Below, one piece after another: positions 30,901-50,933 of a stretch of 64,000 nt of DNA. Below the pieces are notes generated by a model. The model did no database searches. It saw nothing but the letters and a program-made list of their open reading frames with translations, and had not been told where the DNA came from. The stretch is from Zobellia barbeyronii (GTDB lineage: Bacteria; Bacteroidota; Bacteroidia; Flavobacteriales; Flavobacteriaceae). The DNA lies in assembly GCF_018603515.1 (NCBI RefSeq), contig NZ_JACATN010000001.1, positions 62,001-126,000 of the forward strand. The letters run 5' to 3'. Position 1 is the first letter of the stretch; each line of letters starts with the position of its first letter. The position numbers and the translations under genes are program-made.

Positions 30901-30908
30901 TATCTTGC
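30901..30908 (+). promoter_or_regulatory. TATCTTGC motif before the PLP-enzyme gene
   Basis: TATCTTGC ends 23 nt before ATG 30932, and a TTG at 30874-30876 lies 24 nt upstream as a possible -33 element. The same octamer precedes the gene at 33678. An AAAGGTGA stretch then sits 6 nt before the ATG as a ribosome-binding site that decides this start. Confidence 0.4.
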
Positions 30909-30931
30909 TAACCTATTTAAAGGTGAATTTT

Positions 30932-33614: not shown

Positions 33615-33652
33615 TAAAGTATAAAACCATTCCAAACCTATCTCAACTCTAG

Positions 33653-33660
33653 TATCTTGC
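33653..33660 (+). promoter_or_regulatory. TATCTTGC motif before the 73-residue protein gene
   Basis: Identical to the octamer at 30901-30908 and 17 nt before ATG 33678. Repeated position suggests a variant -10 element in this genome. Confidence 0.35.
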
Positions 33661-33677
33661 AATAATAAACCGTCATT

Positions 33678-33899: not shown

Positions 33900-34033
33900 G
33901 CCAAAACTGAATTCCATTTCTTTACAATACTCTATTCAAGGTCTAGCAATCACCGTACTTTAAACTAGTAAACTATATCGTTACGTATCTAAACAGCTAA
34001 TTTTTCAATTTATAGGGATTGTATTTTTAGTTT

Positions 34034-34064
34034 TTGGAAAGTTGTAATCTTTCGCTTAGGTTTG
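34034..34064 (+). promoter_or_regulatory. Full Bacteroidota-type promoter for the heparinase-like gene
   Basis: TTG at 34034-34036 (within TTTTTGG) and TAGGTTTG at 34057-34064 are separated by 20 nt, fitting TTG-N17-23-TAnnTTTG. The start codon at 34117 is 52 nt downstream of the -10 element. Confidence 0.55.
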
Positions 34065-34116
34065 ATTGCTTGTACATTAAATGTTTCAAGCGTGTATCTC
34101 AACAAAACGAAATATT

Positions 34117-36117: not shown

Positions 36118-36225
36118 ATTCAGGCATTTGATGGTTTATCAAGCAAAAGCACTCTTATAGTATGAACTAAAAGACACTTTGACGTTTATTGGTGCAAATG
36201 CCCTCACTTTCAGATTTTTCTTGAT

Positions 36226-36233
36226 TACTTTTG
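36226..36233 (+). promoter_or_regulatory. TAnnTTTG -10 element, leaderless helicase transcript
   Basis: TACTTTTG fits TAnnTTTG exactly and ends only 4 nt before ATG 36238, so transcription would start at or next to the start codon. There is no ribosome-binding site, as expected for a leaderless mRNA. Confidence 0.5.
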
Positions 36234-36237
36234 CAAA

Positions 36238-37605
36238 ATGAATACTTTCGAAGATTTCAAAATTAAAAAGCAGTTACAAAAGGCTATTGTAGATTTAGGG
36301 TTTGATGAACCAACACCTATTCAACAAGAGTCCTACTCCACCATTCTTGGCGGTAACGATTTTGTTGGGATTGCCCAAACCGGAACGGGAAAGACAATTG
36401 CATTCCTGCTACCTATCTTGCAGGAATTGAAGTATTCAGATCAAAAACACCCTAGGGTTTTAATCCTAGCGCCTACTAGAGAACTGGTAATTCAAATAGT
36501 AGAGCAAATAGAAAAACTAACGCCATATCTAAGTGTAAGGGCACTGGGTGTGTACGGTGGCTCTAACAATATAAACAATCAGAAAAGAGCTGTAGCGGAA
36601 GGTCAAGATATTATTGTAGGTACGCCTAGAAGATTATATGACTTGGTGCTTGCTAATGTACTTCGACTAAAATCAATCAAAAAATTAGTTATTGATGAAG
36701 TTGATGTTATGTTAGATTTTGGCTATAAAACGCAGCTAAGAAACATCTTTGAGTATCTACCAACAAAGCGTCAGAACATCCTTTTTTCTGCCACTATGAC
36801 TACTTACGTAGACCAATTAATGAACGATTTCCTAGTTAACCCGGTTAAGAAAACCATTTCTATAAGTGGTACACCTTTGGAAAGTATTAGTCAAGAAGCC
36901 TATGCTGTTCCTAATTTCTATACCAAGGCCAACTTATTACATCATCTGTTAGAAGATAGAGATGAGTACAACAAAGTATTAATCTTTGTAGGCAGTAAGA
37001 TCAGTGCCGATAGACTTGCTGAAACATTAGAAAATTTCGAATCTGAAATTTCTGTAATTCACTCAAGTAAAGAACAAAACCACCGTACAAAATCCATAGA
37101 GAAATTTGAAAACGGTAAAAGTAGAATCCTTATCGCGACAGATGTAATTGCTCGTGGTATTGATATTGATAAAATTAGTACGGTAATTAGTTTTGATACA
37201 CCTTACTACCCAGAAAACTACATCCACAGGATTGGTAGAACCGGTAGAGCGGGCGAACAAGGAAGGTCTATTCTCTTTTACAATGAAAAAGAGACTGAAT
37301 TAAAAGAGGCTATTGAAAGCTTAATGAACTACAAAATACCTTTCAATGAGCTTCCTAAGGAAGTAGAAATTAGCTCTGAACTAACACCTGAAGAAGACGT
37401 TAAACCTGTAGATCCCCACGCAGAGCTAGATGACGATGATTCTCCTATTCAAAAAGGAGCTTCCTTTCATAAGAAATCTGCCAAGAATAGCAAAGTACAA
37501 GCAGAGGTAAAAAGCTACGAGAGAAAATTAAAAAAGAAGTATAAAAAACCACAGAAACGAGGAGATAAAATCCAAAATAAAAATAGTAGCAAGAAGAAAT
37601 GGTAA
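36238..37605 (+). CDS. DEAD-box family ATP-dependent RNA helicase (DEVD variant)
   Basis: A 455-residue helicase with a Q motif (FDEPTPIQQES), Walker A AQTGTGKT, APTREL, GTPRRL, SAT, and HRIGRTGR; domain two has LIATDVIARGIDID. Motif II reads DEVD (153-156) instead of DEAD, keeping both acidic residues needed for magnesium and hydrolysis. A long Lys-rich tail (residues ~390-455) is typical of RhlE/CsdA-like enzymes that bind structured RNA. It likely remodels RNA in ribosome assembly or at low temperature. The transcript appears to be leaderless. Confidence 0.93.
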   Translation: MNTFEDFKIKKQLQKAIVDLGFDEPTPIQQESYSTILGGNDFVGIAQTGTGKTIAFLLPILQELKYSDQKHPRVLILAPTRELVIQIVEQIEKLTPYLSVRALGVYGGSNNINNQKRAVAEGQDIIVGTPRRLYDLVLANVLRLKSIKKLVIDEVDVMLDFGYKTQLRNIFEYLPTKRQNILFSATMTTYVDQLMNDFLVNPVKKTISISGTPLESISQEAYAVPNFYTKANLLHHLLEDRDEYNKVLIFVGSKISADRLAETLENFESEISVIHSSKEQNHRTKSIEKFENGKSRILIATDVIARGIDIDKISTVISFDTPYYPENYIHRIGRTGRAGEQGRSILFYNEKETELKEAIESLMNYKIPFNELPKEVEISSELTPEEDVKPVDPHAELDDDDSPIQKGASFHKKSAKNSKVQAEVKSYERKLKKKYKKPQKRGDKIQNKNSSKKKW

Positions 37606-37695
37606 CCTTCTAATAAATCCTAAGCTAAAAAATAAAATTTCTTTTTGTACTCATTTGGATAATAGGTCTGATTTATAACCTGACCAAGAAATATA

Positions 37696-38721
37696 TTAAG
37701 ATATAAAGTTACCATAGGCAATGACAATAATACCACCTGTCATTGCAAGTAATCCCGAGTATAAAAAACGCTTGCTCTTCCCTCCGGCATTTGTCCACTC
37801 GCCAGAGAATACCCCTAATAAATTAGCGACCATAATACAGCCTGTTTGAAATACTGCAAAACCAACAGATGTACCCAAGGGCCCCAAATTATAGGCTCCC
37901 AAGCCATATATAATCAAGGAGGCCACATAAATAATTGCCATTATAGCAATTAATACAATGTTTTTTGTGCTTGCTATTGAAGCAAACTTATTCCATGATT
38001 TACTTTTGCTTAACTGATATACAAAATATAAAACCGTAACAACACCACTACCAATAAAGGACGGAAGCATTACAGCCAATCTTGCTATCCATGGAGCATT
38101 ACCAAATTGCTCTTGAGAAATAGCTCCTATATGACCAATATTATCTGCTACGTGATAGGACAGATTAAAACCGGCGGCACAAATACCCCCTACAATACAC
38201 ATAATAATACCTGTCTTCATATTTTTAGAAGAACTACTATCACTCGTGATAGATTCATTAGACTCCCGCAAAAGTCCTGCTTTTCCGTTTAGTATAATTC
38301 CGCCCATGATTATCAAAATCCCTAGCACAATCACCATTCCACCCGGAGTTTGCAATTGTTCCATATTCCCCATAAAAAAAGGTATCATAGAGCCTACTAA
38401 GGTGGCAACTCCTATTAGCAAAGAGAAGCCTAAAGCCATTCCTATTTTAGAAATACTAATTCCCCAAAGAAGGTTGCCTATTCCCCAGAGCAGACTTAAA
38501 AAGAATACGCTTACAAAAACTGAAGATGGAACTTGTGCATAGGTATCGCCTAATCCGTTTACTAAAATAAAAGAAGCTAGTACGGGAACAATGAACATGG
38601 CGAATAGCCAGAAGCTACCCCACAAATTAGCTACCTCATAACGTTTTATGTATTTACTTGGAAAAGCATAAAAACCTAGCATAATTGCTGCCAAAAGCAC
38701 CCAGAAAAATCCTAGTATCAT
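37696..38721 (-). CDS. RhaT-like (DMT superfamily) sugar permease
   Basis: A 341-residue inner-membrane protein with about ten transmembrane segments and the RhaT-type start (LGFYAFPSKYIKRYEVANLWGSFW shortened in the family as a conserved N-terminal block), GNLLWGISISKIGMALG, and a second half with GGICAAGFNLSY and GLGAYNLGPLGTSVGFAVF. E. coli RhaT imports L-rhamnose with protons. It is the last gene of a seven-gene operon led by a secreted GH2 enzyme, so it probably imports the sugar or related product released outside. The substrate need not be rhamnose. Confidence 0.8.
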   Translation of the reverse strand: MILGFFWVLLAAIMLGFYAFPSKYIKRYEVANLWGSFWLFAMFIVPVLASFILVNGLGDTYAQVPSSVFVSVFFLSLLWGIGNLLWGISISKIGMALGFSLLIGVATLVGSMIPFFMGNMEQLQTPGGMVIVLGILIIMGGIILNGKAGLLRESNESITSDSSSSKNMKTGIIMCIVGGICAAGFNLSYHVADNIGHIGAISQEQFGNAPWIARLAVMLPSFIGSGVVTVLYFVYQLSKSKSWNKFASIASTKNIVLIAIMAIIYVASLIIYGLGAYNLGPLGTSVGFAVFQTGCIMVANLLGVFSGEWTNAGGKSKRFLYSGLLAMTGGIIVIAYGNFIS

Positions 38722-38745
38722 ATTCCTTTTTCTTAATGAAAATTT

Positions 38746-40203
38746 TTATTCTGAATAATCTAGATAGATAGTTCTTTTCTGTAAGTGGTCTTCTATACCG
38801 TATACACCATCTTCACCTCCTGTACCTGATGTTTTATGACCAGAATGATAGCCTTGAATATAACCTACGATGTGTTTGTTTATAAAGATTGTACCCACTT
38901 CTAATTGGTCAATTGCTTTCTGGTGGGTTCTATAGTCATTAGAATATAAGTAAGCCGACAAGCCTTCTTCCCTTGCGTTAGAATAGGCCATTGCTTCTTC
39001 AAAACCTGAAACCTTCATAATGGGTAATACTGGCGCAAATAACTCGTGTTTAGTTGTAGCATCTCCGTTTTTTACATTAGTTAAAACCGTTGGCTCATAC
39101 CAATTACCCCTTTCAAACTCTGCTCCTTGAGGTCTTTTGCCTCCTAGCACTAATTCTGCTCCTTCGGCAATATTATCTTTTACCAACTGGTCTACTCTTT
39201 CTAACCCTTTGGTACTCACATTTGGTCCCATATTAATAGTACTATCAAACGGATTTCCTGTTTTTATTTGTTTCACGCGTTGTACAAGTTTGTCTGTAAA
39301 CTCATCCGCAATTTTTTCATCTACCATGACCATTTCATTACAAATACATACTTGACCACAATTCGCATAACGCGAAATTACGGCAGCTTCCACCGCCTTA
39401 TCCACATCTGCATCTGCACAAACAATAAAAGGGGCCTTTCCTCCTAGCTCTAATATTAAACCGGTAATATTATTTGCCGCAGCACGGTACATAGCTCTAC
39501 CCGCATTGGTACTACCTGTAAGACTAATAAGTTTTGTAATAGGACTTTCTACTAATAAAGAAGCTACTTCTACACTTTTGGCAGACACCATATTTACCAC
39601 TCCTTTAGGTAACCCGGCCTCAGCTACTAAACGACAAAATTCTGATGCCGTAGTTGGCGTTAATTCGTGTGGTTTTAAGATAATTGTATTCCCGGTGGCC
39701 AACGCAGGCCCTAACTTTCGGCCTATTAGTGCCAATGGGTAATTAAAAGCACATAAAGCAACGGTAACCCCATAAGGCACTTTATATATGGTTAAGCGCT
39801 CATTTGCATTATCCGATGGAAATACTGCTCCTTGAATTCTACGAGCAGCTTCGGCTCCGTAGGTCATGTAGCGAATAGTGTCATCTACTTCCCCTAAGGC
39901 TTCCATGTAGGTTTTACCTTGTTCATGTACTAAAAGTTTGGCAAAATGCTCTCGTTCTAATTTTAGACGGTCTGCAATAGCATAGATATAGTTAGCCCTG
40001 CTTTGTGCCGGTAAAAGTTTCCATTCAAATCCAGCTTTTTCTGAGGTTTCCAATGCATACTGAACATCTTCTGTAGTACAGGCAGTAACCGTAGCAAATA
40101 CGGTATTGTTTGCAGGGTCTTCAACCTCTATTTTTTCTCGGATAGCCGAGTCTAACCATTCTCCGTTAATGTAACACCTATAATGCTTTATATCTTGTTG
40201 CAT
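38746..40203 (-). CDS. AldA-type NAD(P)-dependent aldehyde dehydrogenase
   Basis: A 485-residue aldehyde dehydrogenase. Catalytic Glu252 is in ILELGGKAP and Cys286 in [10 protein letters not shown], a Cys context similar to E. coli AldA (lactaldehyde/glycolaldehyde dehydrogenase). [19 protein letters not shown] and KPHELTP are NAD-binding blocks. The C-terminal [16 protein letters not shown] region also fits the AldA branch. It is 16 bp after the crotonase gene in the operon. It could oxidise lactaldehyde from a deoxy-sugar, or an aldehyde produced by a CoA-ester lyase in the same pathway. Confidence 0.88.
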
Positions 40204-40219
40204 ACTCTTATTTTTTCCG

Positions 40220-40999
40220 TTACTTAAATTTTGGGCTTCGCTTTTCTACAAATGCCTGGAAACCTTCTTTAGCATCAAATGTATTGTACAGAGTAGCTAC
40301 CAAAGTTGCTTCATGCTCTAATGACTCTTGTAATGACATTCCTTTATGTTCCTGCACATAATGTTTAATGGCCGCCATAGCTTGCCCTGCTCCTTGCGCT
40401 AATGCATTCACATAATCAGCAACCTTTTGTTCAAAATCTTTCTTTGCATACAATTGATTAAACAGACCAAAATCATATGCTTTTTGTGGCGAAATGGAAT
40501 TTCCAGTTACTAACAGTTCCATAGCTCTACTAGCGCCTATTAAATCTATTAAACGAGGAGTTCCTCCATTACCCGGCATCAATCCCAATTTAACTTCTGG
40601 GAGTCCAATTAAATAATCGCCTTGGGCAGCCAAGCGGATATCACAAGCCATTATCATTTCTAATCCGCCTCCCAATACATGGCCTCTTATTGCGGAAACA
40701 ATTATTTTTTTACTTGATACCATTGCTTTACAAACTTGATTAGCAGCTACCACCATTTCGGCATTCTGCTCCGTTGTATTGCTACTGAATATCTTTATAT
40801 CGGCGCCAGCACAGAAAAACTTTTCAGAAGTGCTGTTTATCAATATTACTTTAACAGCGGCATCTGCACTTGCATCTTTTATTGATTGACTAATATTTTC
40901 TAAGAAGCCTTTGTAATAACTGTTCGCCTTAGGTCTATTTAAGCTAATGATGGCTACAGCGGCTTCTTTTTTAACTACTACCTGTTCTTCTAAACTCAT
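40220..40999 (-). CDS. Enoyl-CoA hydratase/isomerase (crotonase) family protein
   Basis: A 259-residue crotonase. The oxyanion-hole block [11 protein letters not shown] and both catalytic Glu positions are kept: Glu114 in [13 protein letters not shown] and Glu135 in [19 protein letters not shown]. This fits hydration of an enoyl-CoA, or the hydratase-lyase reaction of the ferulate type. The gene is 2 bp after a CoA transferase gene and 16 bp before the aldehyde dehydrogenase gene, which suggests transferase, then hydratase, then aldehyde oxidation. This order is an inference. Confidence 0.9.
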
Positions 41000-41001
41000 C
41001 T

Positions 41002-42144
41002 TTATGCAAATTCCGTATTTATCTTTTCTGTATGCTCTCCTAAAATAGGACTTCCCTTTTCAGATTTCAACCACGCTCCGTTTATCTGAATGGGGCAACG
41101 TGTAGTTTCATATCCATATCCATCAGACATTTGGACTTTTTGAACCATTTCTAAAATTTTGAAAGCTTCCTTGTCAAACAAGGTTTTCCAATCCATAATT
41201 TCGGCACACCAAATATCAGCAGGTTCTAAAACTGCCAACCATTCTTTGGTATCTTTTGTTTTCAAGTGATTTGCCAAAATGCCCTTAATTTCATCACGCT
41301 GGCTAAACCAACTATCAACTTCGGGATAGTTTAATAATTCCAAACAACCCAACAACTCCCCTATAAAAGGAATAGAACCCATGGCCAAAGCTATGTTTCC
41401 ATTTTTGGTTTTGTAAACACCATACGGCGCTCCCAAATAAGCGTGTGCAGAATTAGTTTTTGGGCGTTCAGTAGGTTGCCCACCGTCTCTAAAGAAGCAG
41501 GTTACGGATTCAAACTGATATTCCAAAGCCGATTCTAGCATACTAACCTCAACCTTGCCACCTTTACCGGTGGTTAGTTTTCGATACAAACAAGCCAAAA
41601 TACCTTGGGCCAAATGTGCACCAGATAAGATATCTATTACTGCTAAACCAATAGGCACGGGTCCTGCACCATCGTTTCCGTTTAGTTGGGTCAAACCTGA
41701 TACGGATTGCAACAATAAATCCAACCCTGGTTTATTCTTCCAAACACCTTCTTTTCCGTAGCCCGTTAATTCTGCATAAACGATATTAGAATTGATAGAT
41801 TGAATCGTATCAAAATCGATTCCCAATTTATCTGCTACTCCTGGTCTAAAATTATGCAATAGGACATCTGCTTTTGCAATAAGCGTATATACTTTTTCTC
41901 GTTCTTGCGCAGATTTCATATCTGCAACGTAACTTTGTTTATTTCTATTGATGGCATGAAACATAGAGGATTCACCATTCATAATCACGTTGGAACAATA
42001 TAATTGTCTTCCCATATCGCCGCTAACTGGCTTTTCGACCTTTATTACTCTTGCTCCTAAATCGGCTAATCGCAAACTTGCCGATGGTCCTGATAAATAC
42101 TGACTAAAATCAATTACTAATATGCCTTCTAATGGTTTTTTCAT
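41002..42144 (-). CDS. Family III CoA transferase (CaiB/BaiF), second copy
   Basis: A 380-residue family III CoA transferase. The N-terminal LEGILVIDFSQYLSGPSASLRLADLGARVIKVE block, read in short parts, is standard; HNFRPGV and ELTGYGKEG follow. The nucleophilic Asp is Asp171 in LAVIDILSG, close to Asp169 of formyl-CoA transferase. It is similar throughout to the protein encoded 2 bp upstream in the operon. These proteins form interlocked dimers, so two tandem paralogues could form a mixed dimer or act on two different acids. The CoA donor and acceptor are unknown. Confidence 0.9.
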   Translation of the reverse strand: MKKPLEGILVIDFSQYLSGPSASLRLADLGARVIKVEKPVSGDMGRQLYCSNVIMNGESSMFHAINRNKQSYVADMKSAQEREKVYTLIAKADVLLHNFRPGVADKLGIDFDTIQSINSNIVYAELTGYGKEGVWKNKPGLDLLLQSVSGLTQLNGNDGAGPVPIGLAVIDILSGAHLAQGILACLYRKLTTGKGGKVEVSMLESALEYQFESVTCFFRDGGQPTERPKTNSAHAYLGAPYGVYKTKNGNIALAMGSIPFIGELLGCLELLNYPEVDSWFSQRDEIKGILANHLKTKDTKEWLAVLEPADIWCAEIMDWKTLFDKEAFKILEMVQKVQMSDGYGYETTRCPIQINGAWLKSEKGSPILGEHTEKINTEFA

Positions 42145-42146
42145 GA

Positions 42147-43292
42147 CTAATTCAGATTAAACTCATTATCAATTAAACCATTATCTTCTCCTACTTTTGG
42201 TGCAGATTTCCTGCTAAAAATTCGCTCTCCATCTATACGAATAGGACAACGAGTGGTCTTCATGATAATACCATCAGAAGTTTCTACATCTTGGTCCATT
42301 TTAAGCACTTTATAAGCGTCATGATCTAGAATCGTTTTATAATCAAAAACAGCCGAAACTCTAAAATCTAATGGTTCAAAAAGGTCTAACCAGTATTGGG
42401 TAGTTTCTTTTATAAGATGCTCTCTTAGAAAATCCATAATAGCATCTCTTTCTGTAAACCAAGTTTCTTTAGCTAAAAACTGATTGGGCAATGACAGCCC
42501 CATTGCTTTAACCAATTCATCTAACGGAGTTAAGGCTATAGCCATATAGCTGTCTTTTGTTTGGTATAGTCCATATGGCGCAGCAACATAAGCATGTGCA
42601 CTTCCTTTCTTTACACGCTTTGGTAATTGATTCCCATCGTTTAAATAGGTAGTTAATAATTCAAACTGAATATCTAACGTAGACTCCAGTAAACTAACTT
42701 CAATCTTAGCTCCCTTACCGGTTTTTGTTCTGCTGATAAGAGCGGCTAAAATTCCCTGTACCAAATGAACCCCAGTAAAAATATCTGAAGTAGCCAATCC
42801 TGATGCGGTGGGGTTATCTTCTGCATTACCAGATAAATTTACAAATCCCGATAAAGATTGAATTAATAAATCCTGACCCGGTTTTTTGGCCCAAGGACCA
42901 ACAGGACCATAGCCCGAAACCACACCATAAATTATTTTAGGATTGATGCTATGTACCGTATCATAATCCAGCCCAATTTTTTCCATTACTCCTGGACGAA
43001 AGTTATGTGTCATGACATCTGCCTGCGCAATTAGTTTCTTAACACGCTCTAAATCGTTGGCATCTTTTAAATTTGCTGCGTAGGATTGTTTGTTTCTATT
43101 GGCCGTATGAAATACCATGCTACTTTCATCAATAAACAAATTTTTGAGTGCAATTTGCCTACCTGCTTCTCCTGTTCTAGGACGCTCAATTTTTATTACT
43201 CTAGCCCCTAAATCTGCCATTTTCAATCCAGCGGAAGGTCCAGCCATAAACTGTGCAAATTCTAAAACTGTAATTCCTTCTAATGGTAGCAT
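42147..43292 (-). CDS. Family III CoA transferase (CaiB/BaiF), first copy
   Basis: A 381-residue family III CoA transferase with the same blocks as its neighbour: FAQFMAGPSAGLKMADLGA, THNFRPGVMEKIG, SGYGPVGPW, and Asp170 in LATSDIFTG as nucleophile. It differs enough from the downstream paralogue (about half of positions by eye) that the duplication is old. It begins 2 bp after the solute-binding-protein gene. It should activate a carboxylic acid by transferring CoA from another acyl-CoA without ATP. Confidence 0.9.
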   Translation of the reverse strand: MLPLEGITVLEFAQFMAGPSAGLKMADLGARVIKIERPRTGEAGRQIALKNLFIDESSMVFHTANRNKQSYAANLKDANDLERVKKLIAQADVMTHNFRPGVMEKIGLDYDTVHSINPKIIYGVVSGYGPVGPWAKKPGQDLLIQSLSGFVNLSGNAEDNPTASGLATSDIFTGVHLVQGILAALISRTKTGKGAKIEVSLLESTLDIQFELLTTYLNDGNQLPKRVKKGSAHAYVAAPYGLYQTKDSYMAIALTPLDELVKAMGLSLPNQFLAKETWFTERDAIMDFLREHLIKETTQYWLDLFEPLDFRVSAVFDYKTILDHDAYKVLKMDQDVETSDGIIMKTTRCPIRIDGERIFSRKSAPKVGEDNGLIDNEFNLN

Positions 43293-43294
43293 GT

Positions 43295-44467
43295 CTATAA
43301 TTTTATTGATTTTAAATACAAGGTATTCAAGGTATCTAAAACCTCTTTTGCATCTCCTCCATTTTTCATGTACTCATGAATAGGTGCTCCTGCATTATCT
43401 TGAAAGAACATATGCCCATGATAACGTGGGCGTAAAAAAGCTCTATCTAAAGCAGGCAGCGTATCCTTAAAGAAATCCATACAAACTGCATTGGTTTCTT
43501 TATTTGTCCATACAGAACGGTGTCCCGGTTGGCCGCCATTATCAAAGAAAAGTCCCGCTTGCGTTTCTGGTGCTGCAACGTACTCCGCATATTTTAACGC
43601 CATTTCTGTATTCTCACTACTAGCCGAAATTGCTAAACCTGTACCCCCCAGAGTACTTATTAGCTTTTGACCACCAATAGAAGTCATATCATGAAACTTC
43701 AGTAATTTTCTTGCATATCCTTTACGAGAGTAATTGGTATAACCATAAGCAAATGGTGAATAAGCATACGTATCCCCTAAAGTCATTGCTTCATAGACTT
43801 TAATAGGATTCATATCATAACATTCGTCTGCAATATACTGTCCTAAATCCCGTAGCATTTTCAATGCTTTTATCCCTATTTCTTCAGATATAAAATATTC
43901 TTGAGATAAAGACACGTCTTCTCCCAAGGTACAACATACCATATAGAAGCTCATGAGCGTATCTTGTGGAATACCGGGTATAGCTACTTTACCCTCTTTT
44001 GCCAAATCCACCAAATCATTCCATGTTTTTGGAGTTTCCTTCAATAAATCCGGACGACTAGCGGCCACCGGTGTTGCAGCATCAATAGCCAAAGCACTTT
44101 GGTACCCTTCAAAACAATAGCTTTCATGAGATTTACCCACAGAATTGTTCTCTTGGTCTTCCAAAAAAGCTTTTGGCAAATGTTCGTTTAAAGGAACAAT
44201 AACTCCCGTACGGGCCGCAAAACCTGCCCAAGGGTGATCAATAACTAAAAGGTCATAGCGCTTCGCTAATTCATTAATAGGCTCGTCAGCAAACGCCTGC
44301 AAAGACCTTTTTTCCCAAGTAATTTCTACATTAGGATTTAACTCATGAAAACGCTGCGCAGTTGCCACAACCGAAGTAAATCCTCTGCTATGATCCCAAG
44401 TAATTCCCTTTAATTGTATTCTCTTATTTTTCAATTTTATTTTTTTTAAATCCTTACTATTAATCAA
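43295..44467 (-). CDS. Solute-binding-protein homologue without signal peptide
   Basis: A 390-residue protein resembling family 1 ABC sugar-binding proteins: GITWDHSRGF at the start of lobe one, YDLLVIDHPWAG, PKTWNDLVDLAKEGKVAIPG, and LGGTGLAISASSENTEMALKYAEYVA, all typical of this fold. The N-terminus (INSKDLKKIKLKNKRIQ) is Lys-rich and hydrophilic with no signal peptide. The start is TTG 44467, overlapping the GH2 stop by 8 bp; no earlier or later ATG would produce a signal. No ABC permease or ATPase is in the window. It may bind a pathway metabolite in the cytoplasm, or be an enzyme derived from this fold. Function unknown. Confidence 0.75.
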   Translation of the reverse strand: MINSKDLKKIKLKNKRIQLKGITWDHSRGFTSVVATAQRFHELNPNVEITWEKRSLQAFADEPINELAKRYDLLVIDHPWAGFAARTGVIVPLNEHLPKAFLEDQENNSVGKSHESYCFEGYQSALAIDAATPVAASRPDLLKETPKTWNDLVDLAKEGKVAIPGIPQDTLMSFYMVCCTLGEDVSLSQEYFISEEIGIKALKMLRDLGQYIADECYDMNPIKVYEAMTLGDTYAYSPFAYGYTNYSRKGYARKLLKFHDMTSIGGQKLISTLGGTGLAISASSENTEMALKYAEYVAAPETQAGLFFDNGGQPGHRSVWTNKETNAVCMDFFKDTLPALDRAFLRPRYHGHMFFQDNAGAPIHEYMKNGGDAKEVLDTLNTLYLKSIKL

Positions 44468-47012
44468 AACCTATTGCTGTTGGTCTTTGAATGCCACTAT
44501 CGTAATCTTTTCCGTTTTCGCGGGTAAACTCGTCAAAGAAGAAATAGTAAGAACCATACCCTCCATGGGCATTGCCATTTTCCATTTCTAAGCGTTCTTC
44601 TTTCCATTCTTGAAAACGTTTTGTTGCTTGGGCCTGATCTCCTATCAAGAAGAAATAGTCATTATGCGAAATTTGCTTTCCGTCATTATCCAACAATTCC
44701 AATTCCACATAAAATCTCCCTTTCACCTTACCTAAAACATCCTCGCTGATTGAAAACAATTGCTTTACACTATTCTCATCTATTGCAGCAACATCATAAG
44801 TTTTCTTGAACAACGTCTTCTTTTCGTCATTACTAACTTTAAATTTAATGGTGCAATCCTCATAGGACTTATAGAAATCATTAACCACCCATATATTCCC
44901 TACAAAAGGTTCATCTGTATGCCATCTACGTTTATTAAATTCAAAATTCACTAATAATGGCTGATATGCTTTTTGAACATAGTAGTACGAGTTTTTAGGC
45001 TTTTGATAATTATCTACAATGGCCCATTTCATATCCGGTCCGTAGGTAATGTAATGACACAATGCAATTGCACTTAAACTTGGTTTATCTCTACGAAAGT
45101 GTTCTATTCCATTTTGAAAAATGATTCCTTGTGCATCTTGTGTGGCATTTACAAATTCCTCTAATGAGCCTTTCATTTCACTACCAAACACATCCCAATT
45201 CTGCATACGTAGACGTGTTAAATCTGCCCAGTGATGTCCCCAGCTTAATCCCGGAGGCCACATTTCATCCTTAGGAATAAATTTCTTTAAACTCTCTACA
45301 GAAGGTACAGAAGTAATAGCAAATTCTGGAACAATAGGATAGCCATCTGCTTTGGTTTGATACCAATCTTCATGCAGCCACTCGCCCATATCATAAAAAT
45401 AACGCAGTGCGTGTACCGCTTCTTTAGGCTTAAAACCTGCTTGCTGAGCAACATGGTCTGTCATTGGAGAATCTGGTACATAAGGTAACTTGGCATACGC
45501 CTGTAATGAATCTCCCAAACGCTCCAAAAATTTTCTTCCTGCTATTGGATCACGCGTACGGAACATCATTTCTTCTCCTCCTTCCATCATAATTAATGAC
45601 GGATGGTTTCTACGCTCTTTAATCACCTTAACACCTTCATTGAATATCTGAGCAACATTCTCCTCTTCCATTGGGATATTACCTGTCCCAAGTGGAATCA
45701 TATCTTGCCAAATGGTCAAGCCCATTTCATCTGCATATTGATAGAATTCAGGAATTTCCGGTGGGTGCCATCCAAAGATTCGAATGTTGTTCATGTTCAT
45801 CTCTTTGGCCATTTTAATCAGCTCAAAGTATTCTTCTTTAGATGTTCTTCCCGTAAAAATATCTACTGGACCACCCCAACATGCAGAACGAATGAAATGA
45901 AATTTGCCATTTATATAGGTTGATCTTGGAAACGTAACATCTACATCTTTTACAAAACCAGGGTTCCATTTAGAAGTAACCTCCCGGATTCCAAAAGTGG
46001 TTTCATTATAATCGTGCCATACTTCGTTGTCTTTAAGTGAAATACGGGCCAGATATAAATTAGGGTCTCCTAAATCCCATGGCCACCATAGTTTGGGTTT
46101 ATCTAAATGAATATTCTTCACTACCTTATGTAAGCCAGGAGCCACTAGTTGGTTGAATTCTATTTTAGTTTCTTCGGATTCAAAATTTTTCCCTTTTAAA
46201 GAAACAGCAAAATTCATGTCCTTGGCCGTAGCATTTGTGTTTTCAATAGTTAACTCCATGCTAACATCTGCAGAGCCATCTTCGTTTATTGTAGTATTTG
46301 CGTAGACATCATTAAAACGAACTTTACCACTACGCACCATTTTTACAGGGCGCCAAATACCCATAGGAGCCAGATCTCTCCAATAATCTCCAAACCAAGG
46401 TGTTTTTTTACCCGCAACAAACGCATTTACCTGTGGCGCAGGGTCAATCTTGACCACTAGCATATTCTGCCCTTTTAGATAATCGTGTTCACTTATTCGT
46501 AAATAGTCGTTAACATTAAAAGAGAATCCAGAAAGTGCCCCTTCATTCTTTCCTAAATAATGTCCGTTTAGCCAAACCTCACAACTGTAATCAACTCCTT
46601 CAAACTTGATGTCCACTACTTGGTTTTCAACACCCTCTTTTACTTGAAATTGGTATGCATACCACCATTCATATTGCTGCACCCATTGTGCTTTTACACT
46701 ATTTCTGCCAAAATAAGGATCATCAATAACACCGGCTTTCCATAAATCCGTATAGACATCTCCAGGCACTTCTGCATTGTTCCAAACCAAGGTTTCTATA
46801 TCTTCTGAAGGCAATTTGTGCAGCCCTCTTTTGATACCCTCTCCTGGCAGCATCATTTTCATCCGCCATTTCATACCACTAAAATCCCTAACTGACTGTT
46901 CTTTGTTCTCATGCGAGAAAGTAGTATTAGGCTGCGAGTAGCCCCCGGAACTAAACAGCATTATTGTTAGTATAGACCACCAAATTTTTCCATTTTTGAA
47001 AATATGTTCCAT
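44460..47012 (-). CDS. Secreted GH2-family glycoside hydrolase, beta-mannosidase-like
   Basis: ATG 47012 gives 850 residues with a signal peptide ending near GGYSQ. Order: sugar-binding jelly roll (EVWLNGHYLG, residues ~75-225), Ig-like domain, then a TIM barrel with NIRIFGWHPPEIPEFY. The candidate nucleophile is Glu563 in VPEFAITS, matching SEFG of beta-mannosidases. The acid/base is probably Glu481 in MEGGEE, where the usual Asn before it is Glu480. It is the first gene of the seven-gene operon and should remove a sugar or glycosidic group from a substrate outside the cytoplasm. Family clear, specificity not. Confidence 0.85.
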   Translation of the reverse strand: MEHIFKNGKIWWSILTIMLFSSGGYSQPNTTFSHENKEQSVRDFSGMKWRMKMMLPGEGIKRGLHKLPSEDIETLVWNNAEVPGDVYTDLWKAGVIDDPYFGRNSVKAQWVQQYEWWYAYQFQVKEGVENQVVDIKFEGVDYSCEVWLNGHYLGKNEGALSGFSFNVNDYLRISEHDYLKGQNMLVVKIDPAPQVNAFVAGKKTPWFGDYWRDLAPMGIWRPVKMVRSGKVRFNDVYANTTINEDGSADVSMELTIENTNATAKDMNFAVSLKGKNFESEETKIEFNQLVAPGLHKVVKNIHLDKPKLWWPWDLGDPNLYLARISLKDNEVWHDYNETTFGIREVTSKWNPGFVKDVDVTFPRSTYINGKFHFIRSACWGGPVDIFTGRTSKEEYFELIKMAKEMNMNNIRIFGWHPPEIPEFYQYADEMGLTIWQDMIPLGTGNIPMEEENVAQIFNEGVKVIKERRNHPSLIMMEGGEEMMFRTRDPIAGRKFLERLGDSLQAYAKLPYVPDSPMTDHVAQQAGFKPKEAVHALRYFYDMGEWLHEDWYQTKADGYPIVPEFAITSVPSVESLKKFIPKDEMWPPGLSWGHHWADLTRLRMQNWDVFGSEMKGSLEEFVNATQDAQGIIFQNGIEHFRRDKPSLSAIALCHYITYGPDMKWAIVDNYQKPKNSYYYVQKAYQPLLVNFEFNKRRWHTDEPFVGNIWVVNDFYKSYEDCTIKFKVSNDEKKTLFKKTYDVAAIDENSVKQLFSISEDVLGKVKGRFYVELELLDNDGKQISHNDYFFLIGDQAQATKRFQEWKEERLEMENGNAHGGYGSYYFFFDEFTRENGKDYDSGIQRPTAIGFD

Positions 47013-47049
47013 AATTTTTACAATTAAAGTAGAATACAAAGATGTAAAA

Positions 47050-47084
47050 AAATCTTTAATTTTTTAAATATAAATTAAAGATTT
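47050..47084. promoter_or_regulatory. Perfect 13-bp inverted repeat, candidate IclR operator
   Basis: AAATCTTTAATTT (47050-47062) and AAATTAAAGATTT (47072-47084) are perfect inverted arms with a 9-bp centre. They fill the 102-bp divergent gap between the GH2-led operon and the iclR-type gene, where IclR proteins normally bind. The right arm abuts the -10 element of the regulator gene. Confidence 0.6.
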
Positions 47085-47091
47085 ATATTTG
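47084..47091 (+). promoter_or_regulatory. TAnnTTTG -10 element of the IclR-family gene
   Basis: TATATTTG is an exact TAnnTTTG, 23 nt before ATG 47115 and touching the inverted repeat, so binding there would block this promoter (autoregulation). On the other strand only a weak CATCTTTG (47037-47044) is seen for the operon. Confidence 0.5.
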
Positions 47092-47114
47092 AATAAAAAT
47101 AAAAAACCCAATTG

Positions 47115-47861
47115 ATGAGTAAATACAAAGCACCTGCTTTAGAGAAAGGATTAGACATTTTAGAGTATTTGTCCGAAAGAGCTATCCCCCAAACTCAGGC
47201 AGAAATATCACAAGGACTTGACAAGAGTCCTAATGAAATTTACAGAATGTTAGCTTGCTTAGAAGACCGGAAATACATAAACAAAACCTCTACCGGCCAG
47301 TATTCACTTTCCATGAAAATGTATCAGCTATCACACAGACATAGTCCTGTAGAAGGGTTGGTAAGGTCCGCAAAGCAACATATGGACGACTTGGCCAACA
47401 GAACCAATCAATCTTGCCATTTAAGTATTTTACATTATGGAGAACTTTTAATTATATCACAATCTGAAAGCCCCGGTGCCGTATCGCTTTCCATTAAAGT
47501 AGGAAGCTTATTTCCGTTATTACAAACCTCATCAGGAAAAGTTTTACTCGCTTTTGAAAATGAAGAGAAACGAAATTACATTTTAGAAACCAGTGATTAT
47601 TACAAAGAACAAGATGAACATTATAGAAGTGGTTTTCTGAAGGATATTAATGCCATTCAGAAAAACGGGTATCACCTAACCAGTAGCGAACTTACAGTTG
47701 GGGTAACGGACATTTCAGTACCTGTAATTGGATTGAACAAAGATATTATGTGTGTTTTGGCCATATCTAGTTTAAACCCAATAACCCGCAAACAAGATAA
47801 CAACATACTCATTGAAGAGTTAAAGCAGACTGCCGATAAAATAACGGCAGAACTAAGTTGA
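47115..47861 (+). CDS. IclR-family transcriptional regulator
   Basis: ATG 47115 gives 248 residues. A winged helix-turn-helix occupies residues ~5-70 (ALEKGLDILEYLS, TQAEISQGLDKSPNEIYRMLACLEDRKYI), followed by the IclR effector-binding domain (CHLSILHYGELLIISQSE, LQTSSGKVLLAF, LTVGVTDISVPVIG). IclR proteins commonly respond to small organic acids or aromatic compounds and control neighbouring catabolic operons. It is divergent from the seven-gene operon and very likely controls it, through the inverted repeat in the gap. Confidence 0.92.
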   Translation: MSKYKAPALEKGLDILEYLSERAIPQTQAEISQGLDKSPNEIYRMLACLEDRKYINKTSTGQYSLSMKMYQLSHRHSPVEGLVRSAKQHMDDLANRTNQSCHLSILHYGELLIISQSESPGAVSLSIKVGSLFPLLQTSSGKVLLAFENEEKRNYILETSDYYKEQDEHYRSGFLKDINAIQKNGYHLTSSELTVGVTDISVPVIGLNKDIMCVLAISSLNPITRKQDNNILIEELKQTADKITAELS

Positions 47862-47869
47862 TAAACCAG

Positions 47870-48841
47870 TTACCCTAAGATATTCTTCCTACTCATTCTG
47901 GATGCCACCGTACTGATTATTAATAATTGTATGGCATGGAATATCATAAGTGGCAAAAGGATTATACCTATAGAAGCTAGGTTTCCAAATATTATTTTAG
48001 AAAACACTGTTCCGTGTACCAATGATTTTTTTGTTCCACAGAATTGGGCAGTAATTTGATCTGCTTTATTGAACCTCATCTTCTTTGCCAAGAAACCCGT
48101 TAAAGAAAAGACGATACCAAACAATATTAAAACGGCTACAAAAAGCATCAATAAATCCAAAACAGATACCGTACTGAATATATCCCCCTCAAACGATTCT
48201 GCAAAACTCTTATAGATGATAAGTAGAATTACGGATTTATCAAACAAGGTTAAGCGCTTATTATACTTTTGAGCAAATTCACCTAAAAAGCGTTGCAGAA
48301 GAATACCCACTACTACCGGTAAAATTATTTGAATAAATAGTTTTATATAAATATCGGTGAAATCAAAATCTGTCTGCGCACTCTGTACAAACAAGCCCAT
48401 CCACAAAGGAGTAAGAACAACACCTATTATCCCAGATATACTGGCATTAAAAATAGCTGCAGGAATATTACCCTTTGCCATAGAAACCATAACAACAGAT
48501 GAAGATACGGTTGATGGTAGCGCTGCCAAGAAAAAAAATGCCAACCAAATGGTTTCCTGTGCTTCATTTTGAATAAATGGCCTAAATATCAAAATTAACA
48601 GCGGAAATATCAAAAAGGTAGACCCTTGCACCAGAAGATGCAATTTCCAGTTCTTAATTCCTGCTTTTAATTTTGTAGGACTCAATTTAAGTCCATAAAA
48701 GAAAAATATAAGCGAAATTCCTATCGCACTAATTGTGTCTATTGGAATTTTACTTTCAGGTGTTCCCCATTGAGGAAAAACATATGCTATGCCAATTACC
48801 GCTATAACAGACAAAACAAATCCATCAACCTTTAATTTCAT
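47870..48841 (-). CDS. BASS-type (bile acid:sodium symporter family) transporter
   Basis: A 323-residue inner-membrane protein with about ten transmembrane segments, resembling the SBF-like family (PF13593): start DGFVLSVIAVIGIAYVFPQWG, the crossover-type motif FFLAALPSTVSSSVVMVSMAKGN, and AQFCGTKKSLVHGTVFSK in the second half. Members export or import organic anions with sodium. It converges with the IclR gene, 8 bp apart. Whether it belongs to the same metabolic system is unclear. Confidence 0.85.
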   Translation of the reverse strand: MKLKVDGFVLSVIAVIGIAYVFPQWGTPESKIPIDTISAIGISLIFFFYGLKLSPTKLKAGIKNWKLHLLVQGSTFLIFPLLILIFRPFIQNEAQETIWLAFFFLAALPSTVSSSVVMVSMAKGNIPAAIFNASISGIIGVVLTPLWMGLFVQSAQTDFDFTDIYIKLFIQIILPVVVGILLQRFLGEFAQKYNKRLTLFDKSVILLIIYKSFAESFEGDIFSTVSVLDLLMLFVAVLILFGIVFSLTGFLAKKMRFNKADQITAQFCGTKKSLVHGTVFSKIIFGNLASIGIILLPLMIFHAIQLLIISTVASRMSRKNILG

Positions 48842-49208
48842 AAATATTTGCTTTGTTACGCTCTAATAATATTCTCGTCAAAACAGGAAAAAATTCCAAT
48901 AATCACAATTGCTATAGGCTTTTGAACCTTACTGCTTTTTAAGTATCGTTTATGTGACTAAATTAAACTATTGCAAAAATAGTACAGTATCCATTGTTTA
49001 ATTGCTCTTTCAATATTTACTTTATCCATATTAAAATTTTAATATAAAACGTTAGCTCTTAAAACATGAAATCTTAAAATTTCTTTAAAAAAAACATAAA
49101 TAATACTTATACAAAAAGCTTTCATTAAGTTAGCAGACTGGTTCAGAACATTTCTCGTTCTGGCTTAGTTTCCGCTCATACCATTTTATACATTTAACCA
49201 CCCAAATT
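48842..49208. other. 367-bp intergenic region before the NCS1 permease gene
   Basis: AT-rich divergent region. It contains an 18-bp perfect palindrome at 49028-49045 and small repeats (GAAAT-N6-ATTTC near 49068, AGAAC-N7-GTTCT near 49145). No gene recognised and no exact TAnnTTTG facing either gene. Confidence 0.5.
49028..49045. promoter_or_regulatory. 18-bp perfect palindrome, candidate operator
   Basis: ATATTAAAA followed at once by TTTTAATAT, all A/T. It is 163 bp before the NCS1 permease start. A dimeric regulator could use it, but an A/T-only palindrome can also arise by chance in this composition. Confidence 0.35.
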
Positions 49209-50933
49209 ATGAACGCTTCGGAGGATTATAGTGCATTAAAACAACTGAATGAGGAGCAGCTACCAATTTCAAAACATAAATTACATGGTTGGGCACATTT
49301 TTTGGGCCTATATGCAGGTGAGCATGTAGCCGCAACAGAATTTGTAATAGGCGCCACCTTTGTTGCCCTTGGCGCTAAAACGACAGATATTATACTGGGC
49401 CTCTTGGTTGGTAATATTTTAGCTATTTTAAGCTGGACCTTCATTACCGCGCCTATTGCCGTAGAGACTCGCCAGAGTCTTTATACCTATTTGAATAAAA
49501 TTGCGGGCGATTCAATGACCAAGCTATATAACTGGGCTAACGTAATTATATTCACCGTAATATCTGCGGCTATGATTACAGTTTCCTCTACAGCCGTTAG
49601 ATTCGCGTTTGATATTCCCGCACAGCTTAATTGGTATCCCACCAATGCATTTTTTGTAATAGTGGTACTCCTAGTGGGAACTATAGTTGTCTTTGTTGCT
49701 ATGTATGGTTTTAAGGCCGTTTCTGAATTTTCTAGCATTTGTGCCCCTTGGCTTTTTGTTATGTTTAGTAGTGGAGCCCTTGTGCTTATGCCTGCTTTAT
49801 CCGAAGCCGTTTTAGGTAAAACTGAGTTGAACGGATGGAGCGACTTTTTACTTATTGGAGACCAATCTATTTGGACCGGTATAAACAGTGCTGGAGAACC
49901 GGGCATAGGTCTACTAGAGGTTATAGGATTTGCATGGGCCGCAAATACCATTACGCACTTTGGTCTAATAGATATGGCTTTACTCCGTTACGCAAAGAAA
50001 AGTTCATACGGACTAGCTACCAGTTCAGGTATGCTATTCGGACATTTTGTTGCTTGGATCTGTGCAGGTATTATGGGTGCAGGTACGGCCGTTTTATTAA
50101 AGAAAAGTATTACTGAACTTGATCCTGGCGATGTTGCCTATTACGCGCTTGGCCTTTCTGGTTTTGTTATCGTTATAATTGCTGGATGGACTACCGCCAA
50201 TGCCAACCTTTATAGAGCAGGCTTAGCTGCTCAGGCCATATTCTACAAACACTCAAGAAGAAAAACAACCTTGGTGGTGGGTATTGTTACTGTTGTGGTA
50301 GCGTGCTTCCCATTCGTTTTCACCCAAATGCTTCCCTTATTAACTTACGCAGGACTTCTAGTTGTACCTGTTGGCGCCATTGTTTTTGCCGAGCATGTAA
50401 TTTTCCCTCGCATAGGTCTTACCAGATATTGGGTATCCTATAAAAACGTAAAAACTAGTGTTCCGGCCGTTGCTTCGTGGGGGCTAGGATTAGTCTTTGG
50501 TTTTGGTCTCAATGCCATGAACGTTATATCCTTCTATTATTTATTTATACCTACTTGGATATTCACTATCTTACTCTATACGCTTTTGGCAAAGAAATAT
50601 GGTGCAGCAGAAAGTTACCCTGCAGAAGAAGCACTTGACAAACAGCGAAATGAAAAAATAATAGCCTACCAAGACGAACAAGCTGAAAATGATCCTCCTC
50701 ATTTGGATGACAAATCCGGTTTTACAAAACTACTTCGTGTAGTTGCCTATGGCAGCTTAATCATCACTATGGTTCTTGCTATCATCACCATGTTCTGGAG
50801 TCCGGATATGGCACAATACGAAATTAACCGCGATATTTTTTACACCTATGCATTTATCTGCACGTTAACTTATTTTGCAACGGCCTATTGGGTCTTGCAA
50901 AGAAATAAAGCACTGAATAAAAGCGATCATTAA
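49209..50933 (+). CDS. NCS1-type (cytosine/purine permease family) transporter
   Basis: A 574-residue permease with about 12-14 transmembrane segments and the NCS1 layout: GLYAGEHVAATEFVIGATFVALG and LLVGNILAILSWTFITAPIAVETR near the start, FAWAANTITHFGLIDMALLRYAKK in the middle, and IIAGWTTANANLYRAGLAAQA later. Known NCS1 members carry nucleobases, allantoin, hydantoins or thiamine. The next gene, 13 bp downstream, is a mannitol 2-dehydrogenase, and no purine or pyrimidine gene is near, so it may carry a polyol or sugar acid. That substrate is an inference from context. Confidence 0.8.
   Translation: MNASEDYSALKQLNEEQLPISKHKLHGWAHFLGLYAGEHVAATEFVIGATFVALGAKTTDIILGLLVGNILAILSWTFITAPIAVETRQSLYTYLNKIAGDSMTKLYNWANVIIFTVISAAMITVSSTAVRFAFDIPAQLNWYPTNAFFVIVVLLVGTIVVFVAMYGFKAVSEFSSICAPWLFVMFSSGALVLMPALSEAVLGKTELNGWSDFLLIGDQSIWTGINSAGEPGIGLLEVIGFAWAANTITHFGLIDMALLRYAKKSSYGLATSSGMLFGHFVAWICAGIMGAGTAVLLKKSITELDPGDVAYYALGLSGFVIVIIAGWTTANANLYRAGLAAQAIFYKHSRRKTTLVVGIVTVVVACFPFVFTQMLPLLTYAGLLVVPVGAIVFAEHVIFPRIGLTRYWVSYKNVKTSVPAVASWGLGLVFGFGLNAMNVISFYYLFIPTWIFTILLYTLLAKKYGAAESYPAEEALDKQRNEKIIAYQDEQAENDPPHLDDKSGFTKLLRVVAYGSLIITMVLAIITMFWSPDMAQYEINRDIFYTYAFICTLTYFATAYWVLQRNKALNKSDH

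Follow-up and report, generated by a model that had tools for sequence, protein, structure and literature searches.

Here we present a computational analysis of an eight-gene locus of Zobellia barbeyronii that joins a glycoside hydrolase of family 2 (GH2) to enzymes of coenzyme A (CoA) ester chemistry. The locus lies in a window of 64,000 nucleotides, the whole stretch of DNA that was analysed (GCF_018603515.1, NZ_JACATN010000001.1:62,001-126,000, forward strand), within a genome of 4.98 Mb in 37 contigs. Seven minus-strand genes (37,696-47,039) run from GH2 to a RhaT-like permease; between these two they encode a homologue of solute-binding proteins (SBP), two family III CoA transferases (CaiB1 and CaiB2), a crotonase and an AldA-type aldehyde dehydrogenase (ALDH), and an iclR gene is divergent. 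The set is a conserved, patchily distributed operon, probably for sugar catabolism, in which an unusual CoA module is joined by a cytosolic protein of SBP fold. Its parts are as follows.

37696..38721, minus strand: RhaT-like permease, probable sugar importer (PF06379, 80.9 bits; cut-off 27)
38746..40203, minus strand: AldA-type aldehyde dehydrogenase, proposed to convert a sugar aldehyde into a sugar acid (PF00171)
40220..40999, minus strand: crotonase of the enoyl-CoA hydratase/dehydratase type (PF00378; GGGLEM and LPEV motifs)
41002..42144, minus strand: family III CoA transferase CaiB2 (PF02515, 309.5 bits)
42147..43292, minus strand: family III CoA transferase CaiB1, of a separate clade (PF02515, 319.4 bits)
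43295..44467, minus strand: cytosolic SBP-fold protein with a TTG start, partner of the transferases (PF13416/PF01547; model fold)
44460..47039, minus strand, with an ATG at 47012: GH2 of the beta-mannosidase-like group, probably exported (GH2 domains, Mannosidase_ig)
47063..47093, no strand: 31-bp palindrome TTTAAATATAAATTAAAGATTTATATTTGAA, proposed IclR operator (motif rarity, recurrence in other loci)
47112..47861, plus strand: divergent IclR-family regulator (PF01614, PF09339)

The eight open reading frames (ORFs) fall into the Pfam families RhaT (PF06379), Aldedh (PF00171), ECH_1 (PF00378), CoA_transf_3 (PF02515, twice), SBP_bac_8/SBP_bac_1, the GH2 domains with Mannosidase_ig, and IclR. 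The gaps between successive operon genes are -8 bp (GH2/SBP), 2 bp (SBP/CaiB1), 2 bp (CaiB1/CaiB2), 2 bp (CaiB2/crotonase), 16 bp (crotonase/ALDH) and 24 bp (ALDH/RhaT). These families, the range of gaps from -8 to 24 bp and the divergent iclR had been named in an original prediction made from the sequence, and coordinates and Pfam confirm them. The gene positions given there also stand, except that GH2 more likely starts at an internal ATG (47,012), which precedes a signal-peptide-like hydrophobic stretch, and that an ATG of IclR lies at 47,115. Spacing and conserved order suggest that the seven genes are co-transcribed.

The SBP homologue is the most unusual member of the set. The family assigned to it by the original prediction is correct; it is, however, not an ordinary binding protein, because no signal peptide is visible, a feature on which the prediction did not remark, just as it left the tie to the transferases uninterpreted. 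Export was judged crudely, from the maximal 11-residue hydropathy within the first 45 residues and from the alignment. By this measure neither a signal peptide nor a lipobox is visible in the SBP and its relatives: 48 of 51 rows, which include one C-terminal fragment and one duplicate, are at or below 1.07, and the other three lie at 1.34-1.87. The AlphaFold2 model (pLDDT 91.0, pTM 0.86) and Foldseek nevertheless assign the SBP fold to the window protein. The best match is LpqY (7ape, trehalose; TMq 0.82), followed by MalE3 (6dtq, maltose) and SmoF (7qhv, sulfoquinovosyl), all at TM of about 0.8 and 13-17% identity. Mean column identity of the SBP is 72% over 19 sequences. No ABC permease was found in the window operon (ORF list and Pfam). 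In L071, L076 and L077 (loci are numbered L and genomes G) an ABC system with its own further SBP lies nearby, and in L072 an ABC system lies between the two SBP genes. A second signal-less SBP (SBP2) occurs in loci of arrangement B, described below; in L046:11855-14134 it is fused to a Gfo/Idh/MocA oxidoreductase in a single 759-aa ORF, and a cytosolic, enzyme-linked role of SBP2 is therefore likely. The SBP is a constant partner in the set, and our guess is that it presents the sugar acid to the transferases. Neither NCBIfam nor Pfam assigns a substrate to the SBP or GH2. In one short metagenomic contig the SBP is split across two ORFs (L068:1433-2589).

The gene set was traced through SBP matches, 26 of 28 of which were followed (the window and 25 loci; the fragmentary L025 and L026 were left out). 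Genes of the loci were named by their best BLAST hit above 60 bits to window or locus proteins, many at 25-40% identity, so that genes may be missed or misnamed; Pfam/NCBIfam scans covered representatives. L031 and L051 are the same Z. uliginosa locus, counted once in each locus set and twice in the GH2, hydropathy and intergenic counts. The operon order is the same in Zobellia uliginosa, and most of it is kept in other genera; the order thus recurs in other Bacteroidota and is not peculiar to one strain, on which score the original prediction holds. The SBP query matches 24 of 299 Flavobacteriaceae genomes, and a 19-row SBP profile (E <= 1e-20) matches 19 of 395 genomes across the phylum. PF02515 is present in 34 of the 299 genomes, comprising 22 of the 24 SBP-positive (all except G216 and G270) versus 12 of the 275 SBP-negative ones (Fisher p = 1.2e-22, relatedness of genomes not corrected). 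Sixteen four-kb loci came from the phylum draw, counting that of the window; CaiB adjoins the SBP in 15 of them, the exception being L115. A contig scan gave 19 loci, including Zobellia, Cellulophaga, Tenacibaculum, Aquimarina, Lutibacter, Flavobacterium, Reichenbachiella, Paradesertivirga and Pullulanibacillus camelliae (Bacillota). SBP relatives are found in Cytophagales, one Bacillota strain and Alphaproteobacteria, and an SBP2 relative in a haloarchaeon; 145 plasmid records match the SBP, 90 of them from Sinorhizobium. On Sinorhizobium meliloti pSymB (L070:6826-9119) a CaiB2-like transferase and the SBP form an overlapping two-gene unit. Within Zobellia, CaiB1 is patchy (3 of 9 genomes, one with a 40% relative in another arrangement). 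A 5.52-Mb Zobellia genome (G300) carries another SBP-crotonase-CaiB-SDR set (SDR, short-chain dehydrogenase/reductase) beside a DHDPS-family gene (L092, 4423-9410), with a SusC/SusD-like pair as judged by ORF size and sequence start.

Three ARRANGEMENTS of the gene set were recognized. A, the window type, reads GH2-SBP-CaiB1-CaiB2-crotonase-ALDH-(RhaT). B reads RhaT2-SBP-CaiB1-CaiB2-SBP2-Gfo/Idh/MocA, often with MaoC. C consists of an SDR, the SBP, a crotonase, a lactonase propeller and a UxuA-type gene, often with an RraA aldolase, and occurs with or without CaiB. In set 1 (26 loci), CaiB is present in 21, crotonase in 10, MaoC in 8, either hydratase in 18 and both in none; in set 2 (19 loci), the corresponding counts are 18, 13, 7, 17 and 3 (L054, L062 and L063, which carry both arms). 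A crotonase or MaoC hydratase is thus near in 35 of the 45 loci of both sets. Flavobacterium sp. UMI-01 has a merged cluster, RhaT2-CaiB1-CaiB2-SBP2-Gfo-MaoC-GH29-(two genes, one sulfatase-like by its sequence start)-GH2-SBP-crotonase-ALDH-RhaT, and the stretch that was read holds one transferase pair and one SBP.

CaiB1 and CaiB2 are the only PF02515 matches of their genome (319.4 and 309.5 bits; gathering score 23.3). An Asp stands at the GLAVID position in all 83 transferase homologues of the fetched loci when aligned with YfdE, formyl-CoA transferase and SUGCT; we take it to be the catalytic Asp of family III CoA transferases. In a tree built without the duplicate L051, 35 of 36 CaiB1 sequences form one clade (support 0.998) and 36 of 41 CaiB2 sequences another (support 0.847), the exceptions being Pullulanibacillus and four alphaproteobacterial sequences. 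For both window transferases the best scores are 174-177 bits with the formyl-CoA/YfdE/SUGCT group and 97-103 bits with racemases; at 78 and 93 bits they do not reach the cut-off of the NCBIfam L-carnitine CoA-transferase model (413). The GGGLEM and LPEV motifs of the crotonase align with 2ppy and presumably hold the two catalytic glutamates of crotonases.

The best solved relatives of the operon ALDH are 6j75 (432 bits) and 3k2w (430 bits), with E. coli AldA at 347 bits. According to excerpts of PMC10163077, 6J75 is the best PDB match of a 3,6-anhydro-L-galactose dehydrogenase. The genome encodes a second ALDH (C22:442678-444117), 46% identical to that of the operon, which is a closer candidate for the 3,6-anhydro-L-galactose dehydrogenase. 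Because this candidate adjoins an MR-MLE gene elsewhere in the genome, the assignment of the operon ALDH as the canonical anhydrogalactose dehydrogenase was dropped. The RhaT-like permease belongs to the Pfam family and is below the cut-offs of all four NCBIfam RhaT equivalogs, the best score being 240 bits against 369; the same genome encodes a 41% relative, truncated at the L086 edge, beside a probable anhydrogalactose locus. The best solved relative of GH2 is the beta-mannosidase 5n6u. By the same crude hydropathy, 9 of 13 GH2 sequences exceed 1.7 and 4 are at or below 0.8. In the GH2 clan an Asn usually precedes the acid/base Glu; here a Glu precedes the aligned acid/base Glu in 13 of 13 sequences (two of which are the same Z. 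uliginosa gene), a replacement that may mean an unusual sugar at the cleaved end.

The regulator proposed by the original prediction faces the operon across a conserved palindrome (47,063-47,093), from which IclR would control the operon, making it a putative operator. The pattern TTCAwATATAAA-n7-TTTrTATwTGAA, derived from the window and related sites, matches once in the window, with 1 mismatch, and never in 100 shuffles; hits at the source sites are by construction, because the pattern was drawn from them, and its rarity is the informative part. Across the window's own genome the operon palindrome is the only site with at most 2 mismatches; a second site differs at 3 positions, and one hit is obtained with the reversed control pattern too. 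For G001 and G248 the sole hit is the operon palindrome, and the control gives none. G019 has the operon palindrome, one 2-mismatch and one 3-mismatch site, with control hits as well. In G312 (L059) the operon palindrome is missed, having one extra spacer base, and the sole hit, with 3 mismatches, is on another contig stretch. The motif recurs in the iclR intergenic regions of 8 other loci, in other genera too. Of 25 such regions scanned, 9, from both arrangements, were chosen for alignment as showing the motif, and the rest have other inverted repeats or none. The gene facing iclR belongs to the operon set in 21 of the 25 divergent regions (GH2 in 6, RhaT2 in 12, SBP in 3; Z. uliginosa counted twice).

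The neighbourhoods of the relatives are rich in sugar genes. In Tenacibaculum L057 and L069 a PfkB kinase and a 2-keto-3-deoxy-6-phosphogluconate (KDPG) aldolase lie 5-9 kb upstream on the same strand (L057 by Pfam/NCBIfam scan, L069 by similarity). The best NCBIfam matches of the L057 kinase are the KHG/KDPG aldolase-sugar kinase fusion (459.7 of 700 bits) and the kinase of 2-keto-3-deoxygluconate and 2-keto-3-deoxygalactonate (KDG/KDGal; 212.6 of 440 bits), both below cut-off. L057 also has a relative of GH50 beta-agarase (4bq2, E 4e-115), and members of the GH50 agarase family occur at L033 (Pfam Agarase_CBM), L060, L061 and L069. An alpha-L-fucosidase accompanies the variant B or related loci L034, L072, L073 and L074, and pectin genes accompany L041. 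A fucono-lactonase-family gene with dehydrogenases is present in L041, L065, L066 and L067 (199.8 of 400 bits for the L067 lactonase), FAH in L041, L065 and L067, and RraA or DHDPS-type aldolases lie near relatives. The haloarchaeal L073 combines a fucosidase, an amidohydrolase, an MR-MLE gene, a CoA transferase, an AMP-binding protein, SBP2 and MaoC. L034 holds a KduD-like SDR (320.8 bits, cut-off 338.85) and a zinc alcohol dehydrogenase (Zn-ADH) that is 87% identical over 211 residues to the Zn-ADH near the second ALDH and the MR-MLE gene of the window's own genome (L086). The arrangement of L086 resembles the agarose-sugar cluster in excerpts of PMC10163077.

Two Flavobacterium genomes bring the CoA set close to genes of a fucose-type oxidative pathway. 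The stretch of G315 (L065) has lactonase-, SDR-, Zn-ADH- and FAH-like genes, and that of G316 (L066) the same minus FAH. Sugar-acid dehydration is normally carried out by metal or iron-sulfur enzymes acting on the free acid. The MR-MLE matches of G315 and G316 comprise one DgcA/epimerase-like and one MenC-like protein (both named by best match, below NCBIfam cut-offs) and one enolase-length protein below the Pfam cut-off, and there is one IlvD-family match in each; no sugar-acid dehydratase of MR-MLE or IlvD/EDD type was found (two families in draft assemblies, UxuA not being searched genome-wide). A deoxysugar-type oxidative pathway therefore appears there without a dehydratase of the two families and with the CoA set adjoining. 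Of 36 genomes, 31 have a single IlvD match and 5 have two. In the window operon no cycloisomerase was found (ORF list and Pfam), the MR-MLE gene lying in another locus, L086. In another member of the Flavobacteriaceae, an MR-MLE gene of the length of the cycloisomerase-like gene of Z. barbeyronii lies about 13-15 kb from a variant A operon (G084:C44:211259-211867). L091 is the reverse case: its SBP is distant (27%), it has an MR-MLE gene, and its 19 kb contain neither a transferase nor a hydratase.

Gene content and order, the association of SBP and transferases, the absence of a visible signal, the model fold and the palindrome come directly from the tools used; from them we infer a substrate and a chemistry. 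Our leading reading, with a probability of about 0.4, is that the operon serves the uptake and oxidative degradation of one algal sugar through CoA-thioester dehydration or ring opening. The exported GH2 would release the sugar, the RhaT-like permease would import it and, judging by its family, the AldA-type dehydrogenase would turn the sugar aldehyde into the sugar acid. CaiB1/CaiB2 would transfer CoA onto this acid, and the crotonase would take the alpha proton and eliminate the beta oxygen, so that an ordinary aldonate would be dehydrated or a 3,6-anhydro-aldonate would have its ring opened. The transferases would then shift CoA from the product to the next substrate, freeing a 2-keto-3-deoxy acid for a KDGal/KDG route (dehydrogenases, kinase, aldolase) encoded elsewhere. 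The whole would follow the carnitine CaiB and CaiD scheme with a sugar acid replacing carnitine. Context suggests agar-type anhydro sugars or L-galactose/L-fucose-type acids as candidate substrates. In favour of this reading stand the co-occurrence of SBP and transferases, the hydratase near most loci, the sugar-acid genes beside relatives, the cases of G315, G316 and L091, the SBP2 fusion in L046 and the Klebsiella deoxyribonate proposal. Families and conserved order support the earlier outline of one catabolic unit in which CoA is transferred to an acid and a crotonase works on the resulting ester, together with an AldA-type dehydrogenase. The order of steps probably differs from that first proposed: as in the catabolism of 3,6-anhydrogalactose, the dehydrogenase more likely supplies the acid to which CoA is then transferred than oxidizes a cleavage product. 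A bolder form, which we hold tentatively and regard as rather unlikely, is that the set makes up an undescribed kind of sugar-acid dehydratase, in which the cytosolic SBP and the two transferase paralogues hold the acid and add CoA, a crotonase or MaoC protein dehydrates it or opens the anhydro ring, and CoA is recycled.

Several observations weigh against CoA-thioester dehydration. In 5 of 26 loci no CaiB lies within about 20 kb of the SBP, and around the CaiB and SBP pair of S. meliloti pSymB no crotonase or MaoC relative was found within 8 kb. MR-MLE has at least one match in each of the 36 genomes. An MR-MLE gene stands beside the CoA genes in the alphaproteobacterial L071 and L076, Roseateles L077, the haloarchaeal L073 and the Bacteroidota L064, and the 8 set-1 loci with a lactonase propeller all carry a UxuA-family gene, with CaiB in 4 and crotonase in 6. 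Where an MR-MLE or UxuA-type gene is present in this way, the CoA set cannot be read simply as the dehydratase that is missing. The dehydration model does not account for the two transferase clades, and its alpha-keto acyl-CoA product is chemically odd. A 'missing dehydratase' in all relatives was dropped in view of L064, L071, L073, L076, L077 and the UxuA-bearing loci. The model is leading and not settled, because the CoA-set loci with MR-MLE or UxuA genes stand against G315 and G316.

An unlikely alternative is that the crotonase splits a C-C bond, a retro-aldol reaction of the sugar-acid CoA ester giving a short acyl-CoA (glycolyl- or acetyl-CoA) and an aldehyde that the AldA-type enzyme would oxidize. 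This keeps the hydratase-lyase idea of the original prediction with a sugar acid as the substrate. AldA relatives act on lactaldehyde and glycolaldehyde, and AldA-type genes (at least 67% identity) accompany the crotonase arm in loci that are visible to both ends, such as L031-L033, L052, L055-L059 and L069, while L036, which has no crotonase, has an ALDH cut by the locus end. The Klebsiella deoxyribonate proposal, in excerpts of PMC6365646, likewise ends in C-C cleavage of CoA esters. However, the MaoC-bearing relatives are mostly without such an ALDH (L037, L039 and L041-L043; L040 has a 30% relative only; L054, L062 and L063 have both arms). The KDG-type kinase, KDPG aldolase and KduD-like genes found beside relatives call for a 2-keto-3-deoxy acid that has not been cleaved, and the nearest solved dehydrogenases, 6j75 and 3k2w, outrank E. 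coli AldA.

It is also quite improbable that the CoA step inverts or isomerizes the sugar acid (C2 epimerization through the acidified alpha proton), or moves water, ahead of an ordinary MR-MLE/UxuA dehydratase. PF02515 includes the alpha-methylacyl-CoA racemases, which are among the matches of both transferases, and MR-MLE or UxuA-type genes adjoin the CoA genes in several relatives. Yet the transferases score higher with the formyl-CoA/YfdE/SUGCT group than with those racemases, the window operon has no MR-MLE/UxuA-type dehydratase, and G315 and G316 lack the MR-MLE or IlvD sugar-acid type. There is likewise little chance that the CoA genes handle a small, late acid (lactate, glycolate, glycerate or similar) while the SBP-fold proteins are cytosolic sensors or storage proteins. 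The named family III transferases that were matched use small acids, for example oxalate, formate and succinate, and the SBP fold is that of ordinary sugar binders; against this, the SBP is conserved and tracks the transferases, and most such acids would need no hydratase.

Very improbable is the route first proposed, a ferulate-like pathway in which GH2 would free a phenolic or acyl acid for activation by CoA and subsequent shortening. In its favour, the families superficially parallel synthetase, hydratase-lyase and vanillin dehydrogenase, the best NCBIfam match of IclR is the PcaR/PcaU/PobR subfamily (104 bits, far below the cut-off of 285), and in Roseibium L071 the strand opposite the MaoC gene carries, at a distance of about 1-2 kb, an aromatic dioxygenase set together with a reductase, a thiolase and an AMP-binding protein. 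Against it, no AMP-binding CoA ligase (feruloyl-CoA synthetase) was found in the window operon (ORF list and Pfam), the other side of L071 is a sugar ABC system with a lactonase-type amidohydrolase and a mutarotase, and the neighbours of the relatives are mostly sugar genes (lactonase, fucosidase, agarase relative, KDG-type kinase, KDPG aldolase, KduD-like dehydrogenase, FAH).

If the bolder reading, that of an undescribed sugar-acid dehydratase, is true, proteins of the SBP fold would in several phyla have gone from being import receptors to presenting substrates as enzyme subunits. A CoA route would explain how some marine and soil bacteria finish sugar pathways that appear incomplete as annotated. 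Signal-less 'extracellular solute-binding proteins' of this type would need their annotation corrected, and one more step would be added to the breakdown of algal and pectic sugars. In open-licence PMC text, no published description of the gene set was found among the matches listed, one of which, PMC9676036, mentions both Zobellia and CoA transferases, and none of the excerpts of PMC11378808, PMC3454389, PMC10163077, PMC5698469, PMC6365646 and PMC9007349 describes it; in that of PMC5698469 the terms IclR and RhaT are absent and 'CoA' matched 'coastal' alone.

A sigma-70 promoter scan was uninformative (44 sites versus 46.7 expected), terminator-like sites numbered 15 versus 9.3 expected, Rfam at gathering score gave no match in 33,000-50,000, and a tRNA scan found none. 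Just outside the operon, 34081-36117 matches Heparinase II/III-like C-terminal and DUF4962 and is a possible polysaccharide lyase. On the other side lie a PanS-like SBF transporter (47870-48841), a 574-aa permease-like ORF without a Pfam match (49209-50933) and a mannitol-dehydrogenase family gene (50947-52431). Positions 1239-24954 form a carrageenan-type utilization region with two sulfatases, two SusC/SusD pairs, a lambda-carrageenase-like protein (11946-14705) and a GH16 (24067-24954). Two further ORFs, 4456-5775 (439 aa) and 30905-32776 (623 aa), have no Pfam match at E 0.001.

Among known systems, carnitine CaiB/CaiD works by CoA transfer, beta-elimination by a crotonase and passage of CoA from product to substrate. 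As proposed, the operon is alike in acquiring CoA by transfer, in beta-elimination by a crotonase and in the recycling of CoA from product to substrate, a likeness of mechanism only. Unlike CaiB/CaiD, it has two paralogous transferases, a sugar-type SBP, an aldehyde dehydrogenase and a sugar context, and its transferases are nearer to YfdE, formyl-CoA transferase and SUGCT than to CaiB. Benzylsuccinate CoA transferase (9fn0, chains A and B) likewise has two different family III subunits, there in one enzyme, with a weaker match to CaiB1 (62 and 100 bits). The ABC binding proteins LpqY, MalE3 and SmoF share the fold of the operon SBP (TM-score about 0.8), which by contrast has no visible signal peptide, has no ABC permease in its operon and is tied to CoA transferases. 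For Klebsiella michiganensis, genetic evidence has led to the proposal that deoxyribonate is used by way of sugar-acid CoA thioesters, and the cluster includes a CoA-transferase; that system differs in starting with a CoA synthetase and in using a hydroxyacyl-CoA dehydrogenase and a thiolase, and no SBP or hydratase is named in the excerpts (PMC6365646). The 3,6-anhydro-L-galactose pathway is alike in a RhaT-like permease and agarase relatives near several related loci, and possibly in its dehydrogenase, for which 6j75 is the best solved match although the genome has another candidate; unlike it, the operon has CoA genes instead of a cycloisomerase, and the genome of Z. barbeyronii keeps a separate ALDH and MR-MLE locus (L086).

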